A DNA stretch of 64,000 bases, from assembly GCF_000376265.1 (NCBI RefSeq), contig NZ_AQWU01000072.1, positions 1 to 64,000 on the forward strand, given 5' to 3'. The position numbers and the translations under genes were made by a program. The stretch is from Thermus igniterrae ATCC 700962 (GTDB lineage Bacteria > Deinococcota > Deinococci > Deinococcales > Thermaceae). Positions 54,183 through 63,046 of this stretch are shown one piece after another (the first letter of the stretch is position 1; every line of letters begins with the position of its first letter). The notes beneath the pieces are model-generated. The model was given only the letters and a program-made list of their open reading frames with translations, was not told the origin of the DNA and ran no database searches.

Positions 54183-55034
54183 TTACCTCCTGGGCCCGGC
54201 GAAGAGGGCCACGGTACCGGGGCCGGTGTGCACGCTCACCGCCGCCCCGGCGGGGAGGGTGGAGAGGACCTCTACCCCCTCGCTCCGCAAAAGCTCCCCC
54301 AGGGCCCTGGCCCCCTCGGGGTTGGCGGCGTGGGCCAGGTGGACCAGGGCCCCTTGGGGAAAGTCGCGGCGGAAGAGCTCGGCGATCCGCCGAAGGCCCT
54401 CGTGGAAACCCCGCACCCGGGGGCCGGGCAGGACCCGTCCCCCCTTCACCTCCAGCACCGGCAGGATGCGCAAAAGCCCTCCCACCAGGCCCTGGAGGCC
54501 GGAGATGCGGCCGGAGCGCTGGAGGTAGACCAGGGTCTTGGGGAGCACATAGCCCCGCACCCGCTCCCGGTAGGGGGAGATGCGCTCCTCCAGCCGCTCC
54601 CAGGCCACCCCTTCCTTCAGGAGGCGGCGGGCCTCCTCAAGGACCAGCCAAAGCCCCCCATTTAAGGACCAGGAGTCCAGGACCTTGACCCGGCCCCCGA
54701 AATGCTGGGCCACGCTGAGGGCCGTGGCCACGGTCCCGGAGAGCTGGCCGGAGATGTGGACGGAGAGGACCCGGTCGTGGGTCCTGAGGAGCCTTTCGTA
54801 GGTCTCTTGGAAGTCGGCCGGGGCCACCTGGCTGGTGGTGAGCCTTTCCCCCTTTTCCAGCAGGGCCAGGACCTCCTCGGGGGTGATGTCCAGGAAGTCC
54901 CGGTAGGTGCGGTCCTTGTGGACCACCTGCTGGGGTACCAGGTGGATGCCGTGCCTGAGGGCCTCTTCCGGGGTGAGGCCCAGGGTGGAGTCGGCCACGA
55001 AGGCGGTGCTAGAGGCTGTAGGCATAAAACCCAT
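54183..55034 (-). CDS. DegV-family fatty-acid-binding protein (copy 2)
   Basis: The 283-residue DegV protein has 'FVADSTLGLTPEEALRHGIHLVPQQVV' at the start, the lipid-binding Ser/Thr region 'LTTSQVAPADFQETYERLL' near 65, 'VLSVHISGQLSGTVATAL' near 90 and 'YLQRSGRISGLQGLVGGLLRILPVL' near 170. DegV proteins bind acyl chains and act with fatty acid kinase in species that have it. It overlaps the upstream degV by 26 bp, so translation of the two is coupled. The exact start is uncertain: ATG 55025 is an alternative. Confidence 0.85.
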   Translation of the reverse strand: MGFMPTASSTAFVADSTLGLTPEEALRHGIHLVPQQVVHKDRTYRDFLDITPEEVLALLEKGERLTTSQVAPADFQETYERLLRTHDRVLSVHISGQLSGTVATALSVAQHFGGRVKVLDSWSLNGGLWLVLEEARRLLKEGVAWERLEERISPYRERVRGYVLPKTLVYLQRSGRISGLQGLVGGLLRILPVLEVKGGRVLPGPRVRGFHEGLRRIAELFRRDFPQGALVHLAHAANPEGARALGELLRSEGVEVLSTLPAGAAVSVHTGPGTVALFAGPRR

Positions 55035-55851
55035 AGGTGCCGGGGCCGGTGTGGCTGGCGATCACCGCCCCAAGCTCGCTCACCAAAGCCTCTTCCACGG
55101 GGAGCCCGGAGGCCAGCACCATCTCCTTGAGCTCCCCTACGGCGCTTTCCTCGGCACTGTAGAGGAAAAAGGCCCGGATGGACCGGCGCCCCTGGCCCCA
55201 GGCCTTGAAGTCCTTGAGGATCTCCTCCCGGGCCTTCTTCTCCCCCCGGGCCCGGCCAGCCGCTTCCACCCGCCCCTCCTTGAGGGTGAGGATGGGCTTG
55301 ATGCCCAGCAGGGTGCCCAAAAGGGCCTGGGCCCCCCCGATGCGCCCGCCCCGCTTCAAAAACTCCAGGGTGGCCACGCTGAAGCGCACAAAGTGGTCCT
55401 GGCGGATGCGCTTGAGTTCCTCCAGCACCTCCGCAAGGCCCTTTCCTTCCCCCAGGAGCTCGTGGGCCCGGAGGACCATCATGCCGATGCCCAGGGAGGC
55501 CGCCTGGCTGTCAAACACGGTGATGCGCCCAGGGAAGCTCTGGGCGGCCAGCTCCGCGGACTGCACCGTGCCGGAGAGCTTGGCGGAGATGTGCACCGAA
55601 AGGACGTGGTCCGCCTCCTTCAGGGCCTCCTCGTAGGTGCGCAGGAAGTCCTCGGGGGAGGGCTGGCTGGTGGTGGGGAAGGCGGAGCCCTCCCGCACCT
55701 TCTGGAAGATCTCCTCGGGGGTGATCTCCTGCCAGTCCCGGTAGACCCGTCCCCCCAGGTTCACGTACAGGGGGACCACGCGGATGCCCAGGCGCTCCCG
55801 TAGGGGCCCGGGCAGGTCGGAGGTGGAGTCGGTTACCAAGGCTACCTTCAT
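55009..55851 (-). CDS. DegV-family fatty-acid-binding protein (copy 1)
   Basis: The 280-residue DegV protein starts MKVALVTDSTSDLPGPLRER with the Asp-Ser-Thr motif. It continues with 'FPTTSQPSPEDFLRTYEEAL', 'VLSVHISAKLSGTVQSAELA', 'LEFLKRGGRIGGAQALLGTLLGIKPIL' and the terminal 'IASHTGPGTYGFYAYSL'. It is a paralogue of the gene that overlaps its 3' end. The two share only moderate identity, so the duplication is old. ATG 55851 is chosen because AAGGAGG lies 5 nt upstream. Confidence 0.9.
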   Translation of the reverse strand: MKVALVTDSTSDLPGPLRERLGIRVVPLYVNLGGRVYRDWQEITPEEIFQKVREGSAFPTTSQPSPEDFLRTYEEALKEADHVLSVHISAKLSGTVQSAELAAQSFPGRITVFDSQAASLGIGMMVLRAHELLGEGKGLAEVLEELKRIRQDHFVRFSVATLEFLKRGGRIGGAQALLGTLLGIKPILTLKEGRVEAAGRARGEKKAREEILKDFKAWGQGRRSIRAFFLYSAEESAVGELKEMVLASGLPVEEALVSELGAVIASHTGPGTYGFYAYSL

Positions 55852-55950
55852 AAGGCCTCCTTGTGATCCGGGACAGGATACCACAGGGGGGCGGTGTAGT
55901 GTAGGGGTCTTGTTGCTCCAGGGGAGGGTTTCTGCTAGGGTCAAGGGTAT
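55852..55950. promoter_or_regulatory. Divergent promoter region, degV and serA
   Basis: Forward: TTGCTC (55913-55918), 17-bp spacer and TAGGGT (55936-55941), 9 nt before the serA ATG. Reverse: -10 TATCCT (55880-55875), followed by a 5' leader with GGAGG before the degV ATG. No palindrome typical of an operator is obvious. Confidence 0.5.
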
Positions 55951-57516: not shown

Positions 57517-57537
57517 AGCCCCTCCGGCCGGGGGCTT
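57516..57537 (+). terminator. Hairpin after serA
   Basis: AAGCCCC (57516-57522) and GGGGCTT (57531-57537) form a 7-bp stem with an 8-nt loop immediately after the serA stop. There is no T-run, so it is a weak terminator candidate. Confidence 0.45.
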
Positions 57538-57564
57538 GCTCCCTCGGACCCCAAAAGTTTGGCA

Positions 57565-57594
57565 TTGACAGAACTTTGCGAACGGGCATAGGCT
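57565..57594 (+). promoter_or_regulatory. Promoter of the regulator-permease-LolA-like operon
   Basis: A perfect -35 TTGACA (57565-57570), an 18-bp spacer and TAGGCT (57589-57594) are followed after 6 nt by GTG 57601. The transcript should be leaderless for the regulator. The spacer is less GC-rich than the surroundings (GAACTTTGCGAAC). Confidence 0.7.
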
Positions 57595-57600
57595 CGGGGC

Positions 57601-58044
57601 GTGGAGGCTCCCCTGAAGGCCTGGGTGGAGGAGACCGCCCTCCTCTTTGAGGCCGCCGGCCTACCCCGCATGGCGGGCCGGGTGCTGGCCTGGCTCCTCA
57701 TCGCCGAGCCCCCGGAGCAGACGGCCAGGGAGATGGGGGTGGCCCTTTCTGCCAGCAAGGGGGCCTTGAGTCCGGCCCTGTACCTCCTCACCCGGCTCCA
57801 CCTGGTGGAGCGGCTTCGCCGGCCAGGGGAGCGGGCGGACCGCTACGCCGTGCGCCCTGGGGCCTGGAAGCGCCTCCTTCTGGAGAAGACCCGGGCCCTT
57901 TCCCGCTACCGGGAGCAGGCGGAGAGGGGCCTGGCCCTGGTGGGGGAGGTGCGCGGGGAGAGGCTTAGGGAAATGCGGGAGCTCTACGCCTTTTTTGAGC
58001 GGGAGCTTCCCAAGCTTCTGGAGCGCTTTGAGGAGGGGAGATGA
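57601..58044 (+). CDS. GbsR/MarR-like transcriptional regulator
   Basis: The 147-residue protein (GTG start) has a winged-helix core 'AGLPRMAGRVLAWLLIAEPPEQTAREMGVALSASKGALSPALYLLTRLHLVERLRRPGERADRYAVRPG' (about 18-88) and a C-terminal helical dimerisation part rich in Arg and Glu. The N-terminal 'ETALLFEAAGLPRMAGR' resembles GbsR-type regulators. The 4-bp overlap with the first permease gene suggests control of its own operon, probably as a repressor responding to a small molecule. The ligand is unknown. Confidence 0.75.
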   Translation: MEAPLKAWVEETALLFEAAGLPRMAGRVLAWLLIAEPPEQTAREMGVALSASKGALSPALYLLTRLHLVERLRRPGERADRYAVRPGAWKRLLLEKTRALSRYREQAERGLALVGEVRGERLREMRELYAFFERELPKLLERFEEGR

Positions 58045-59225
58045 GCCTCTTGCGCCTGGCCTGGCGGAGCGTGTTGCGGCAACGGCGCCGCACGGCCCTC
58101 CTCTCCTTGGTGGTGGTCTACGTCACCGTGGCCACCCTCTTTCTCCTGGGCTTCTTGGACGGGTACGGGGAGAGCCTGGTGGAGGCTTACGCGGAGTACG
58201 TGGAGGCCCCGGTGGCCGTGGCCCAGGAAGCCTGGTGGGCAGACCCTGACCCGGAGCACGGCCTAAAATCCCTTCCCACCCTGGCCCACCCCCTGGTCCA
58301 GGCGGTGAGCCCCCGGCTTTCCGTTTACGCCCTTTTGCGCTCCCCCTACCGCCTCGAGGGGGGACTGGTCCTGGGCGTGGACCCCGAGGGGGAAAAGGGC
58401 CTTTCCCGCGTGCCGGCCAAGGTGGCGGAGGGGCGCTGGCTTCGCGCCCGGGGCGAGGTGGTCCTGGGCCAGCGCCTGGCGGAGCGGCTGGACGTGAGGG
58501 TGGGGGAGCGGCTGGTGGTGGAGACGGGAAAGGCGGCTTTGGGCCTGGAGGTGGTGGGCCTGGTGCGGGCTGGGGTCTCCAACGTGGACTTTTTCGGGGT
58601 TTACCTGCACCTAGAGGACGCCCAGGCCCTCACCGGGGCCCTGGCCACCCACCTGGCGGTGAAGGTCCCCCGGGGCAGGGAGGGGGCCGTGGCCCAGGCC
58701 CTGAGCCGCACCCTGCCCCCCGGCCTCCAGGCTAAGGGGGTCTGGGACCTCATGGGGCCCATCCGGGCGGACTACGAGGGAAGCCGCCTCCTCTACATCC
58801 CCCTCCTGGGCCTTTTCATGCTCCTGGCGGCCATCGCCGTGGTGAGCACCACCTACGTGAGCGTGCGGGAGCGCCTAAGGGAGTTCGCCGTGGCCGAGAG
58901 CCTGGGCCTCACCCCCTGGCGCCTGGCGGGGCAGGTGGCCCTGGAGGCGGCCCTGGCCAGCGGCGTGGGCCTGGTCCTGGGCCTTCTTCTTGGGTATGCC
59001 CTCCTCTGGTACACCTCCACCCACGATGTCTTCGGACCCCTCATGCGGATGAGCGTGGAGCTCCTTCCCGAGTCCGGGCTTTCCGAACACCTGTACACCG
59101 CCCTAAGGCCCGCGTACGCCCTGTATGCCGCCGGGGTGGTGGGGCTTTCCGCCCTCTTGGCCCTGCTCTTCCCCGGGCGGCTGGTGCTGGCCCTGGAGGT
59201 CCCCCGCTACCTGAAGGAGGGGTGA
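58041..59225 (+). CDS. FtsX/LolC-type ABC permease 1
   Basis: The 394-residue membrane protein has the MacB/LolC layout: one N-terminal helix (about 19-42, 'RTALLSLVVVYVTVATLFLLGF'), a large periplasmic domain (about 45-245), and three C-terminal helices (about 253-275, 297-325, 360-385). 'YVSVRERLREFAVAESLGLTPWRLAGQV' after helix 2 is the FtsX-family coupling region. It starts 4 bp inside the regulator gene and ends 1 bp before the LolA-like gene. It should pair with permease 2 and the ATPase. Confidence 0.82.
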   Translation: MSLLRLAWRSVLRQRRRTALLSLVVVYVTVATLFLLGFLDGYGESLVEAYAEYVEAPVAVAQEAWWADPDPEHGLKSLPTLAHPLVQAVSPRLSVYALLRSPYRLEGGLVLGVDPEGEKGLSRVPAKVAEGRWLRARGEVVLGQRLAERLDVRVGERLVVETGKAALGLEVVGLVRAGVSNVDFFGVYLHLEDAQALTGALATHLAVKVPRGREGAVAQALSRTLPPGLQAKGVWDLMGPIRADYEGSRLLYIPLLGLFMLLAAIAVVSTTYVSVRERLREFAVAESLGLTPWRLAGQVALEAALASGVGLVLGLLLGYALLWYTSTHDVFGPLMRMSVELLPESGLSEHLYTALRPAYALYAAGVVGLSALLALLFPGRLVLALEVPRYLKEG

Positions 59226-59226
59226 G

Positions 59227-59922
59227 ATGCGCAAGGTTTTCCCGGTTCTTCTGATCCTCCTGGCTCCCGTCCTGGCCCAGACCCCCTTGGAGAAGCTCCG
59301 GACCGCCCTGGACCGCCTACGCGGCCCAGCCCACCAGGCGGTCTACGCCCTGTGGGTGGAGCGCCCCGGCCAGAGCAAGCTCTACCGCCTCAAGGTCTAC
59401 ACCGACGGGGAGCGGGTCCACCTCCGGGTGCTGGAGCCTAAGGCGGAGGCGGGGCAGGCCTACTTGTCGTTGGGGCAGGACCTCTACCTCTACGACCCCC
59501 GGCTTGGCCGCACCCTGCGCCTGCCCCCCACGGGCCGGAGCGAGCGCTTCCTGGGTTCCGACCTCACCTACCAGGACCTTATGGGCCGCGACCTGGAGGA
59601 GCTTTTCCAGGTGGCGGAGGAGAGGGGGGTGCTGGTCCTTTCCCCCAAGCCTGGGGCCGCCACCCCCTACGGGCGGGTGGAGGTCCACCTGAAGGAGGGC
59701 CTGGTGGAGCGGGTCCTCTACTTTGACCAGCGGGGCCAGGCGGTGCGGGAGCTGAGGCTTGGCGCCTACCAGCGCCTGGATGGGGCCTACCTACCCCGGG
59801 AGATGGAGCTTAAGGACCTCCTGCGCCCTGGGTACCGCACCCGGCTGGAGGTGAGCGAGGTCCAGGTAGGGGGGGTGCCCGAGCGGTGCTTCCATCCCCT
59901 CTACCTGGAAAGGGGGTGTTAG
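59227..59922 (+). CDS. LolA-like outer-membrane lipid/lipoprotein carrier
   Basis: The 231-residue exported protein has a signal peptide (MRKVFPVLLILLAPVLAQ) and then the pattern of the LolA/LppX half-barrel family: 'VYALWVERPGQSKLYRLKVYTDGERVHLRVLEPK', 'DLYLYDPRLGRTLRLPPTGRSERFLGSDLTYQDLMGRDLE' and 'YLPREMELKDLLRPGYRTRLEVSEVQVG'. Such proteins carry hydrophobic cargo across the periplasm. It is set between the two permease genes, so the two FtsX-type permeases probably hand it a lipid or lipoprotein. The cargo is unknown. Confidence 0.75.
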   Translation: MRKVFPVLLILLAPVLAQTPLEKLRTALDRLRGPAHQAVYALWVERPGQSKLYRLKVYTDGERVHLRVLEPKAEAGQAYLSLGQDLYLYDPRLGRTLRLPPTGRSERFLGSDLTYQDLMGRDLEELFQVAEERGVLVLSPKPGAATPYGRVEVHLKEGLVERVLYFDQRGQAVRELRLGAYQRLDGAYLPREMELKDLLRPGYRTRLEVSEVQVGGVPERCFHPLYLERGC

Positions 59923-61119
59923 GTGCTGCGCCTGGCCTGGCGGAACCTGCTCCGCACCCCGGGCCGCAACCTGGCCACGGGCGGGGTGGTGGCCCTGGTG
60001 GTCTTCCTGTCCCTGGTCTTCCTCTCGGTCTACGCCGGGGCCTTTGACGCCTTCTTCCGCCTCCTCCTGGAGCGCACCGGGCATCTGGTGGTCCGGGTGG
60101 AGAGCTACCGGGAAAAGGAGGACCTGGAGGCCCTGACCTTTGCTCCCCCGGCCCTGCCCCTCCCCCCCGGGACCCAGGTGGAGGGGGTTTTGGAGGGGCA
60201 GGCCCTGGTCATCGCCGGGGAGCGGAGCCGGGCGGCGGTGCTCACGGGCCTCGAGGCCGGGGGGCTTGAAAGGCAGCGGAAGTTGCTGAAGGCCGGCCGC
60301 CTGCCCCAGGCCTCGGGGGAGGCCCTTCTGGGGGAGGCCCTGGCCCGGGCCCTCAAGGTGGGCCTGGGGGACGAGGTGGTGGCCTACGCCCCCGGGGGGA
60401 TGGGCCTGGGCATCTTCCCCTTCCGGGTGGTGGGCCTTCTGGACCTGCCGGAGACCCACCTGGAGGCCCGCACCCTGGTGGTGGGCCTAGGGGACGCCCA
60501 AGCCCTCCTCTTTCCCGGCCGGGTCACCCGGCTGGAGATTAGGCTTTCGGGAATCGGCCTTTACGACCAGGAGCCCCTGGAGGCCTTGAAGGCCCGCCTG
60601 AAGCCCCACCTGGAGGGCCTGACGGTGGAAACCTGGCTGGAGGCCAATCCCCTCTACGCCGCCCTCCTGCCCCTCTACGACACGGTGATGGCCCTTTACG
60701 TGGGGATCTTCTTCCTCCTGGGGGGGCTCATCCTCCTCAACGCCCTCTACCTCTCCCTGGTGGAGCGGGTGCGGGAGTTCGGCCTCCTCAGCGCCCTGGG
60801 TCTCACCGGCCGGCGGGTCATGGCTCTGGTCTTTTGGGAGAGCCTCCTCCTGGTGGGGGTTTCCGCCCTGGTGGGGGCGGGGCTTGGGCTTCTTCTGCAC
60901 CTGGAGCTTTTGGACGGCTTCCGGCTCCCCCTGCCCCAGTGGATCCTGGAGCAGTACCGGGAGTTCGGCCTGCCGGAGGTGCTCTACGGGCGGCTTGGGG
61001 TGAAGGAGGTCCTCCTCACCCTGGGGTATGCCGTGGGGGTAGCCCTGCTGGCGGCCCTTTGGCCGGGGTATCTGGCCTCGAGGCTGGAGCCGGTGGAGGC
61101 CATGCGCTACGTGCCCTAG
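59923..61119 (+). CDS. FtsX/LolC-type ABC permease 2
   Basis: The 398-residue membrane protein (GTG start) has the same arrangement as permease 1: N-terminal helix (about 18-40, 'TGGVVALVVFLSLVFLSVYAG'), a periplasmic domain (about 45-240), and C-terminal helices including 'LYVGIFFLLGGLILLNALYLSLVERVREFGLLSALGLTGRRVMALVFWE' and 'ALLAALWPGYLASRLEPVEAMRYVP', the family's end motif. It starts directly after the LolA-like gene. The ATPase gene follows with GGAGGGAGT before its ATG. Confidence 0.83.
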   Translation: MLRLAWRNLLRTPGRNLATGGVVALVVFLSLVFLSVYAGAFDAFFRLLLERTGHLVVRVESYREKEDLEALTFAPPALPLPPGTQVEGVLEGQALVIAGERSRAAVLTGLEAGGLERQRKLLKAGRLPQASGEALLGEALARALKVGLGDEVVAYAPGGMGLGIFPFRVVGLLDLPETHLEARTLVVGLGDAQALLFPGRVTRLEIRLSGIGLYDQEPLEALKARLKPHLEGLTVETWLEANPLYAALLPLYDTVMALYVGIFFLLGGLILLNALYLSLVERVREFGLLSALGLTGRRVMALVFWESLLLVGVSALVGAGLGLLLHLELLDGFRLPLPQWILEQYREFGLPEVLYGRLGVKEVLLTLGYAVGVALLAALWPGYLASRLEPVEAMRYVP

Positions 61120-61127
61120 GAGGGAGT

Positions 61128-61811
61128 ATGCCCATCGTGGAAGCCAAAGGGGTGCGGAAGGTTTACCGGGGGGATGGGGTGGAGACCGAGGCCCTGCGGG
61201 GGGTGGACCTCCGGCTGGAGGCGGGGGAGTTCACCGCCCTGGTGGGGCCTTCGGGGAGCGGCAAGAGCACCCTGCTCCACATCCTGGCGGGGCTGGATCT
61301 GCCCACGGAGGGGGAGGTCTGGGTGGGTGGGGTGCGGCTGGACCGGCTTTCCCGGGCGGAAAGGGCCCGCTTCCGCCTGGAGCATGTGGGCCTGGTCTTC
61401 CAGGCCTACAACCTCCTCCCCGTGCTCACCGCCTTGGAAAACGCCGCCTTTGTTCTAGAGCTCCGGGGCCTTTCCCGCCCCGAGCGGGAGCGGAGGGCCA
61501 TGGCCGCTCTGGAGGCCCTGGGGCTGGCGGACAAGGCGGGGCGGTTTCCCCGGCAGCTTTCCGGGGGGGAGCAGCAGCGGGTGGCCGTGGCCCGGGCCCT
61601 GGCGGCAGAGCCCCTTCTGGTGCTGGCGGACGAGCCCACGGCCAACCTGGACTCCAAGACGGGGCTCGCCCTCATTGAGCGCATGCAGGCCCTGAACGAG
61701 GAGCGGGGGGTGACCTTTCTCTTCTCCACCCACGACCCCAGGCTCCTGGCCCACGTGAAGCGCATCGTCCGCTTGGAGGACGGGCGCCTGGTGGGGGAGG
61801 AATGGCCATAA
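61128..61811 (+). CDS. LolD/MacB-type ABC ATPase
   Basis: The 227-residue ATPase has Walker A GPSGSGKST near 42, the signature 'LSGGEQQRVAVARALAAEP' near 143, Walker B 'LLVLADEPTANLD' and the H-loop 'STHDPRLL'. This is the LolD/FtsE/MacB class that drives FtsX-type permeases rather than importers. It lies 8 bp after permease 2 and overlaps the next gene by 10 bp. Confidence 0.88.
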   Translation: MPIVEAKGVRKVYRGDGVETEALRGVDLRLEAGEFTALVGPSGSGKSTLLHILAGLDLPTEGEVWVGGVRLDRLSRAERARFRLEHVGLVFQAYNLLPVLTALENAAFVLELRGLSRPERERRAMAALEALGLADKAGRFPRQLSGGEQQRVAVARALAAEPLLVLADEPTANLDSKTGLALIERMQALNEERGVTFLFSTHDPRLLAHVKRIVRLEDGRLVGEEWP

Positions 61812-62584
61812 GGGCCATGCGCCCCCTCTTCTGGCTTCTTTTCCTCCTCCCCGCCTTGGCCCAGGGGTACGAGGTGGGGGCCTACGGCCTGGCGGGCCAG
61901 GCCACCTTGTACCTGCGCCTTTACGGGGAGGTGGCCGGGGAAGGGGGGCGGCTCCGCTTCTCCCTGGCCCCTTACCTGCGCCCCTCCTTGGGGGAGGCGG
62001 GGGTTTCCCTGGAGCAGCTTTCCCTGACTTGGGAGGGGGAGGCCTATGCCCTCACCCTGGGCCGCTTTCCCCTGACCTTGGGGGAGGGGCGGCTTTTCCC
62101 CACCACCTGGAACCGCCCCGGCCCCGCAGGCGGGGAGGAGGGGGTCTGGGGGGGTGTGCTCACGGGCTACGGGGTGGTGCGGGCGCGCCTGGGCTATGCC
62201 TGGGGGCAGGGTGCCTTTTTGGAGCTGGCCTGGCCGGACCTCCGGCTATGGACCTTTTCTGGGGGAGGGGGCCTGGGGGCCACCGGCCGTTTGGGGGAGG
62301 CGGTGGTCTATGGGGAGGCCACCTGGGAGGCCGGGCAGGGAAGGGGGCTTTTGGGCCTGGCCCAGGCCCTCTGGGGGGGTCTTCTGACCCTGGAGGTGGG
62401 GTATCCCTGGAAGGCAGGGCTGGCCTGGGCCTGGGGTGGGGAGGGCCTCGCCTTCCAGGTTCTGGCCGGCTACCGGGAGGGGCCCTTCTTCGCCCTGGAC
62501 CTGGGGGTGGGGGGGCTCAGCCTGGGGCTAGGAGGTTTGGGGGGCCTTCTCTGGTGGCGGGCCTCCTGGAGAGGAGACCTTTAG
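61802..62584 (+). CDS. Predicted outer-membrane beta-barrel-like protein
   Basis: The 260-residue protein has a signal peptide (LFWLLFLLPALAQG) and then alternating short strands rich in Gly, Ala, Tyr and Trp ('YEVGAYGLAGQATLYLRLYGEV', 'LGYAWGQGAFLELAWPDLRLW', 'VVYGEATWEAGQGRGLLGLAQALWGG'), the pattern of a beta-barrel. No family is recognised, and the C-terminus is not a classic barrel end (ends SWRGDL). As the last gene of the LolA-like operon it may be the outer-membrane receiver of the exported cargo; that is inference. The start may also be ATG 61817. Confidence 0.55.
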   Translation: MAIRAMRPLFWLLFLLPALAQGYEVGAYGLAGQATLYLRLYGEVAGEGGRLRFSLAPYLRPSLGEAGVSLEQLSLTWEGEAYALTLGRFPLTLGEGRLFPTTWNRPGPAGGEEGVWGGVLTGYGVVRARLGYAWGQGAFLELAWPDLRLWTFSGGGGLGATGRLGEAVVYGEATWEAGQGRGLLGLAQALWGGLLTLEVGYPWKAGLAWAWGGEGLAFQVLAGYREGPFFALDLGVGGLSLGLGGLGGLLWWRASWRGDL

Positions 62585-62611
62585 CACAAGCCAGATTAAT
62601 CGTGAAAACTT

Positions 62612-63046
62612 TCATTTTTTCTTCCCGAAGGCATAGACCAGCTCATCCCCCTTGCGCACCACCAAAAGCAGGGCCGCCCGGCCCAGGCTGTCCTTGAGCA
62701 CGTACTTGGTGCGCACCTCCCCCTCCACCACCTTCTCCTCCTGCCCTTCCAGGAAGTACCCGGCGGCGGCGAAGGCAGTGAGCACCTGCTGCACGAAGGC
62801 GGCGTGGAGCCGGCTGGCGATGCCCTTGGCGGCGAAGGCCTCCAGGGCGTACCCCCTGGCTTCCGGGAAGCGGCTTAAGAGGGGTTCGGGGCTGCGGGCC
62901 TTATAGGTGCCCGAGGGCAGGCGCACCGCCGGGTCCAGGCTGGAGAGGGTAGCCACCACCGTGGTTACCTCCACCAGGGTCTGGGCCAGGGCCCCGCCCG
63001 CGCCTAAAAGGGAAAGGACCAGGGCCAATACCTTGAGCTTGACCAT
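62612..63046 (-). CDS. Exported protein of unknown function
   Basis: I do not recognise this 144-residue protein. It has a signal peptide (VKLKVLALVLSLLGAGGALAQ), then a compact domain with 'LVEVTTVVATLSSLDPAVRLPSGTYKARSPEPLL', 'KGIASRLHAAFVQQVLTAFAAAGYFLEGQEE' and 'KYVLKDSLGRAALLLVVRKGDELVYAFGKKK'. It appears periplasmic. A short TGAAA-AC-TTTCA hairpin with TTTTTT (62603-62620) spans its stop codon and the end of the preceding operon. The PucR-type regulator ends 9 bp upstream on the same strand. Confidence 0.6.
   Translation of the reverse strand: MVKLKVLALVLSLLGAGGALAQTLVEVTTVVATLSSLDPAVRLPSGTYKARSPEPLLSRFPEARGYALEAFAAKGIASRLHAAFVQQVLTAFAAAGYFLEGQEEKVVEGEVRTKYVLKDSLGRAALLLVVRKGDELVYAFGKKK

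Follow-up and report, generated by a model that had tools for sequence, protein, structure and literature searches.

A six-gene operon of Thermus igniterrae with the parts of a candidate ABC-driven export line from inner to outer membrane

Gene organization of the locus

The window, a stretch of 64,000 nucleotides from a Thermus igniterrae ATCC 700962 contig, carries six ORFs on the forward strand at positions 57601-62584, with spacings of -4, +1, 0, +8 and -10 bp. The original prediction had described a tightly packed six-gene unit made of a regulator, two permeases flanking a LolA-like carrier, an ATPase and a beta-barrel protein. Both the packing and the part list hold: every ORF lies where it had been placed, the spacings stay between -10 and +8 bp, and Pfam returns MarR_2, FtsX with MacB_PCD twice, LolA_like and ABC_tran, the sixth gene being a predicted barrel. 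The clustering of these genes is far beyond chance, and their order recurs in Thermaceae, in two more families of this class and in some MAGs that bear other labels.

A promoter of the form TTGACA-N18-TAGGCT (57565-57594, forward strand) precedes the operon, with the -35 box at 57565-57570 and the -10 box at 57589-57594. The GTG start codon follows only 6 nt downstream of the latter, a spacing that suggests a probably leaderless mRNA. The site is conserved across genera, as is its position relative to the start codon. The single promoter originally proposed is thus present, but its strength was overstated, since the -10 box agrees with TATAAT at 3/6 positions only and the output of a generic sigma-70-like promoter scan does not include it.

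The genes flanking the operon differ by genus, with serA in Thermus and other genes elsewhere, so that the neighbors give no hint of a cargo. In the window, a gene on the reverse strand (62612-63046) converges with the operon and encodes a 144-aa exported-looking protein with no significant Pfam match. Just before serA, also on the reverse strand, two tandem ORFs (54183-55944) have DegV-like starts (VTDSTSDLP and VADSTLGLT) and, judged by these motifs, could be fatty-acid-binding proteins.

Regulator and putative operator

The first gene (57601-58044, forward strand) encodes a MarR-type (GbsR-like) transcriptional regulator of 147 aa. The window copy scores 22.9 bits with MarR_2, against a cut-off of 27, while all five orthologues tested exceed that cut-off; the protein also matches a DNA-binding protein of known structure (PDB 4nb5, E=2.8e-22). 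Upstream of the regulator gene, a putative operator, GTTTGGCATTGACAGAAC (57557-57574, forward strand), forms a GTTY-N10-RAAC inverted repeat over the -35 box. The inverted repeat common to Thermus and Meiothermus at this position, GTTYNNNNTTGACNRAAC, is matched perfectly by two f4 loci (L045 and L064) outside the set from which it was derived.

The 18-bp palindrome over the -35 box, present once per genome at the operon, is a new observation. The 2.2-Mb T. igniterrae genome holds one perfect match to GTTYNNNNTTGACNRAAC, at the six-gene operon, and the reversed control holds none. Exactly one perfect site, again at the operon, occurs in 14 of the 15 operon-carrying Thermus genomes (one damaged); G021 has none. 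Among the 12 Thermus genomes lacking the operon, nine have no perfect site; G002 retains one beside serA and a fragment of the regulator, and G003 and G020 each have one elsewhere. Such a conserved, nearly one-per-genome palindrome makes autoregulation by the MarR-type protein likely. A regulon extending beyond the operon was considered and set aside; this genome holds three sites with one mismatch.

The inner-membrane ABC transporter

Two FtsX/MacB_PCD permeases are encoded by the second and fourth genes: permease 1 (58041-59225, forward strand, 394 aa; FtsX 57.9 and MacB_PCD 40.9 bits) and permease 2 (59923-61119, forward strand, 398 aa), which share ~30% identity. The fifth gene (61128-61811, forward strand) encodes a LolD/MacB-type ATPase of 227 aa (ABC_tran 120.9 bits). 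Both FtsX and MacB_PCD are above cut-off in the two permeases, and the ATPase matches LolD, YbbA and MacB, which places the transporter among the type VII ABC systems. Those of known function, such as LolCDE and MacB, mostly extrude hydrophobic or amphiphilic molecules from the outer leaflet of the membrane; members of the class can also sense or transmit force, as in BceAB and FtsEX.

The ATPase is also related to BceA, and a BceAB-like module for defense against antimicrobial peptides or envelope stress would accommodate this relationship, together with MarR-type control through a single operator and a patchy loss of the operon of the kind known for defense functions. In such a module, the permeases would sense or free the target, and the carrier and barrel would be accessories. 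This explanation is improbable, because the operon encodes two ~395-aa MacB_PCD permeases rather than a BceB-like single permease, has no two-component system, and includes a carrier and a barrel of its own.

The periplasmic carrier and the outer-membrane barrel

The third gene (59227-59922, forward strand) encodes a LolA_like protein of 231 aa with a signal peptide, scoring 106.5 bits with PF17131 (cut-off 30). Its AF2 model, built from 22 sequences, has a mean pLDDT of 87.8 and is predicted to form the LolA half-barrel that had been anticipated for this gene. The nearest Foldseek matches are LolA-superfamily structures (3buu, 3bk5 and 9tp6; TMq 0.72-0.80, E 1e-14 to 1e-16), with LolA and LolB ranking after them. 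Two cysteines near the C-terminus, C221 and C231, are invariant. A search of plasmids for close relatives gave only distant LolA_like matches, and the one inspected adjoins an MMPL gene.

The last gene (61802-62584, forward strand) encodes a 260-aa protein, for which an outer-membrane beta-barrel is predicted, in agreement with the barrel-like reading first given to it. The AF2 model, also from 22 sequences, has a mean pLDDT of 94.5 and shows a signal helix followed by 18 strands. Its listed Foldseek matches are all outer-membrane barrels, namely OmpU, the R. blastica porin, Veillonella OmpM1, OprD-type channels and AlgE; of these, AlgE reaches the top TM value (TMq 0.61). These moderate values support the fold class of the model and not membership in any of the matched families. 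Single-sequence searches of Pfam, NCBIfam and PDB returned no match for this protein. Assignment to DUF1302 was rejected, since 0/22 members match PF06980 and hhalign to a DUF1302 member reached only 40% probability.

A direct protein search with the Thermus barrel found no homologue outside Thermus. Homology across genera was instead established through operon position and profile-profile comparison. Outside Thermus, most ORFs that follow the ATPase are 300-360 residues long and begin like a signal peptide, and the Thermus set and the set from other genera are homologous by hhalign (99% probability, E=2.6e-18).

Uptake porins are included among the best Foldseek matches of the barrel, and a LolA fold could in principle work in either direction. 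The line might accordingly run inward, with the barrel taking up a lipid or hydrophobic nutrient and the carrier bringing it to the permeases. This import reading is unlikely, though somewhat less so than the defense module: well-characterized type VII ABC transporters (LolCDE and MacB) extrude their substrates, and the operon has unrelated flanks, with no linked genes for substrate use.

Distribution and co-inheritance

Thermus, G028 (another genus of the same family, in which no regulator was found at the operon), the Meiothermus-like genus g4 and members of two additional families of the taxonomic order all keep the gene order permease-carrier-permease-ATPase, in most cases with the regulator in front. 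Named close relatives are T. caliditerrae, T. composti, T. arciformis, T. altitudinis and T. brockianus; the operon is present in T. brockianus and T. composti genomes. A named scan with one genome per species recovered the full six-gene order in Thermus, in Meiothermus, and in some Thermaceae and Trueperaceae MAGs, and the order without a detected regulator in MAGs labeled Bacillota, Clostridia and Armatimonadetes. This pattern-limited scan found no locus in Deinococcus. Four operon-bearing MAGs (L077, L080, L084 and L085) are labeled bacterium, Bacillota, Clostridia and Armatimonadetes; the barrels of the first three have signal-like starts and aromatic ends (YFF or WFF), a hint that the cells are diderm or the MAGs mislabeled.

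A profile search of 111 genomes of the class found the operon-type carrier in 47 and the barrel in 48. Both were present in 41, the carrier only in six, the barrel only in seven, and neither in 57 (Fisher P=1e-16, a value uncorrected for phylogeny). The two genes start no more than 4.5 kb apart in 39 of the 41 genomes with both. The homologues are therefore not scattered, and their order is kept across genera and families. In G090 (L172, 4832-6854), carrier and barrel lie adjacent with neither an FtsX permease nor the operon ATPase beside them, an arrangement suggesting that these two proteins are functional partners.

Some genomes, namely G001, G016, G024 and G028, have retained the carrier, or what is left of it, with no barrel detected, which counts against the export line as a fixed unit. 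The sixth gene might still be an unrelated porin, joined to the other genes only by a common transcript. Two genomes of genus g27 would fit this explanation, as their barrel homologue sits on a separate contig, close to a different ABC ATPase (L166/L169 in G100 and L167/L168 in G101), as would G028, where no barrel was found beside the operon. Nevertheless, three families and several MAG lineages have a homologous sixth gene at the same position, and the adjacency in 39 of 41 co-occurrences makes a chance passenger very improbable, the least credible of the explanations weighed here.

Loss of the operon within Thermus

The operon carrier is absent from 12 of the 27 Thermus genomes, in which the DNA separating serA from the converging 144-aa gene (57517-62611 in the window) has been lost wholly or largely. 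Most of the operon-less genomes read have serA and the 144-aa gene, the usual downstream neighbor of the operon, close together, which looks like excision of the unit. The remnants differ among genomes: the barrel gene follows serA in G005; ATPase residues 82-225 and the barrel remain in G022; a piece of the barrel persists in G023, pieces of the regulator in G018 and G002, and pieces of a permease and the ATPase in G020. Decay is also seen in G016, where the carrier and permease 2 are broken, and in G024, where the operon ATPase and the barrel are missing. These varied remnants suggest several independent losses, and the repeated disappearance of the whole unit indicates that it is dispensable and behaves as one function. 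That 12 of the 27 Thermus genomes have lost the unit, often with fragments left beside serA, is a new observation.

Relation to known transport lines and proposed function

The operon resembles the Lol pathway (LolCDE-LolA-LolB) in combining two FtsX permeases, a LolD-type ATPase and a LolA half-barrel carrier. It differs in that its outer-membrane partner is a barrel, that it is dispensable, and that its proteins fall below the Lol cut-offs: the ATPase scores 221.8 bits with the LolD model (cut-off 307.75), the permeases 60.5 and 72 bits with LolC/E (cut-off 362.45), and the carrier 11 bits with LolA (cut-off 112). Alignment with E. coli LolC further shows, in both permeases, a shortened version of the segment that we take to be the hook, which recruits LolA. 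The missed cut-offs and the dispensability rule out a general Lol pathway, with weaker support from the hook segment.

A second Lol-type line that sorts some of the lipoproteins and uses the barrel in place of the missing LolB, or as a gate for surface exposure, has more in its favor than the other alternatives, given the LolD-like ATPase, the LolA-fold carrier and a genome without any match to PF03548 LolA. It is nonetheless unlikely on the same grounds that speak against the general pathway, namely the cut-offs, the loss in Thermus and, more weakly, the hook segment. Moreover, a separate FtsX permease elsewhere in this genome (L161, G000:C48, 5995-7107, reverse strand) reaches 169 bits with LolC/E, above both operon permeases and below the cut-off. 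Porphyromonas gingivalis LolA3 (9tp6), the recently studied one among the closest solved folds to the carrier (TMq 0.80), also did not pair with LolB, in a paper that mentions neither FtsX nor an operon context (PMC13103446).

Among published proposals, the Borrelia BBJ23-BBJ29 cluster comes closest, with a MacB-like type VII permease and its ATPase, a LolA-like carrier and an outer-membrane barrel in one conserved cluster of an LPS-less diderm (PMC13078400). The Borrelia system has one permease, proposed to form a homodimer, together with TPR chaperones and an Omp85-type barrel, and lacks a MarR regulator; the Thermus unit has two permeases and an AlgE/porin-like barrel, and its six genes include no Omp85 barrel or TPR chaperone.

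AmeABCD-type RND(MMPL)-LolA_like/DUF1329-DUF1302 lines likewise unite an inner-membrane pump, one or more LolA-superfamily periplasmic proteins and an outer-membrane barrel in one cluster, whereas the Thermus unit uses a two-permease FtsX/LolD ABC pump, a MarR-type regulator and a shorter barrel outside DUF1302. AmeABCD of Castellaniella defragrans serves monoterpenes (PMC6394551), and iron shortage evokes a strong response from related TetR-ABC-MMPL-LolA_like operons in Porphyromonas and Prevotella (PMC10434189). By analogy with these RND/MMPL lines, the cargo is more likely to be lipids or small hydrophobic compounds than lipoproteins, with which the missed Lol cut-offs agree, as does, more weakly, the shortened hook segment. 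The operon is probably best read as an inducible and dispensable system for exporting a lipid or hydrophobic compound, driven by an ABC pump but otherwise equivalent to the RND-LolA_like-DUF1302 lines.

The carrier and barrel folds and the co-inheritance of the genes support the dedicated export route that had been suggested from the locus. The operon probably encodes a self-contained, inducible trans-envelope export line, for which we infer the direction, the cargo, the repression and the hand-over from carrier to barrel. In this proposal, the MarR-type protein would bind the palindrome over the -35 box and repress its own operon, and would leave the DNA on encountering the cargo or a related signal. 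The ABC transporter would then lift a hydrophobic molecule from the inner membrane, and the LolA_like half-barrel would ferry it through the periplasm to the dedicated 18-strand barrel, which would release or insert it at the outer membrane.

Ordinary LPS requires LpxC, which was found in four control genomes and had no match in this one, in keeping with the earlier description of a genus without ordinary LPS. How Thermus and other LPS-less diderms bring lipids or hydrophobic compounds to their surface is largely open, and this unit has every part that such a line would need, including an outer-membrane barrel family absent from Pfam and NCBIfam. A literature search, with most subscription papers outside its reach, found no description of the six-gene unit. 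A broader claim appears to us evenly balanced between belief and doubt: that several families of Deinococci, and some MAGs labeled as other phyla, share an undescribed, complete ABC-driven line from the inner to the outer membrane, which has a barrel family of its own, is switched by a one-target MarR repressor and brings one specific lipid or hydrophobic compound to the cell surface in LPS-less diderms. One predicted switch and natural deletion about half the time in Thermus make the proposal testable with matched species pairs and knockouts.

Parallel RND-type clusters that pair a LolA_like carrier with a barrel lend further support to the proposed export line. Within the taxonomic order to which Thermus belongs, a paralogous TetR-MMPL-LolA_like-DUF1302 cluster occurs in G055 (L165, 5495-10544), and G047 (L164, 4632-8875) carries a similar cluster of an MMPL/RND pump, a LolA_like carrier and an exported barrel-like protein, the DUF1302 match being confined to L165. 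A LolA_like-DUF1302-MMPL cluster is also present in Chromatiaceae.
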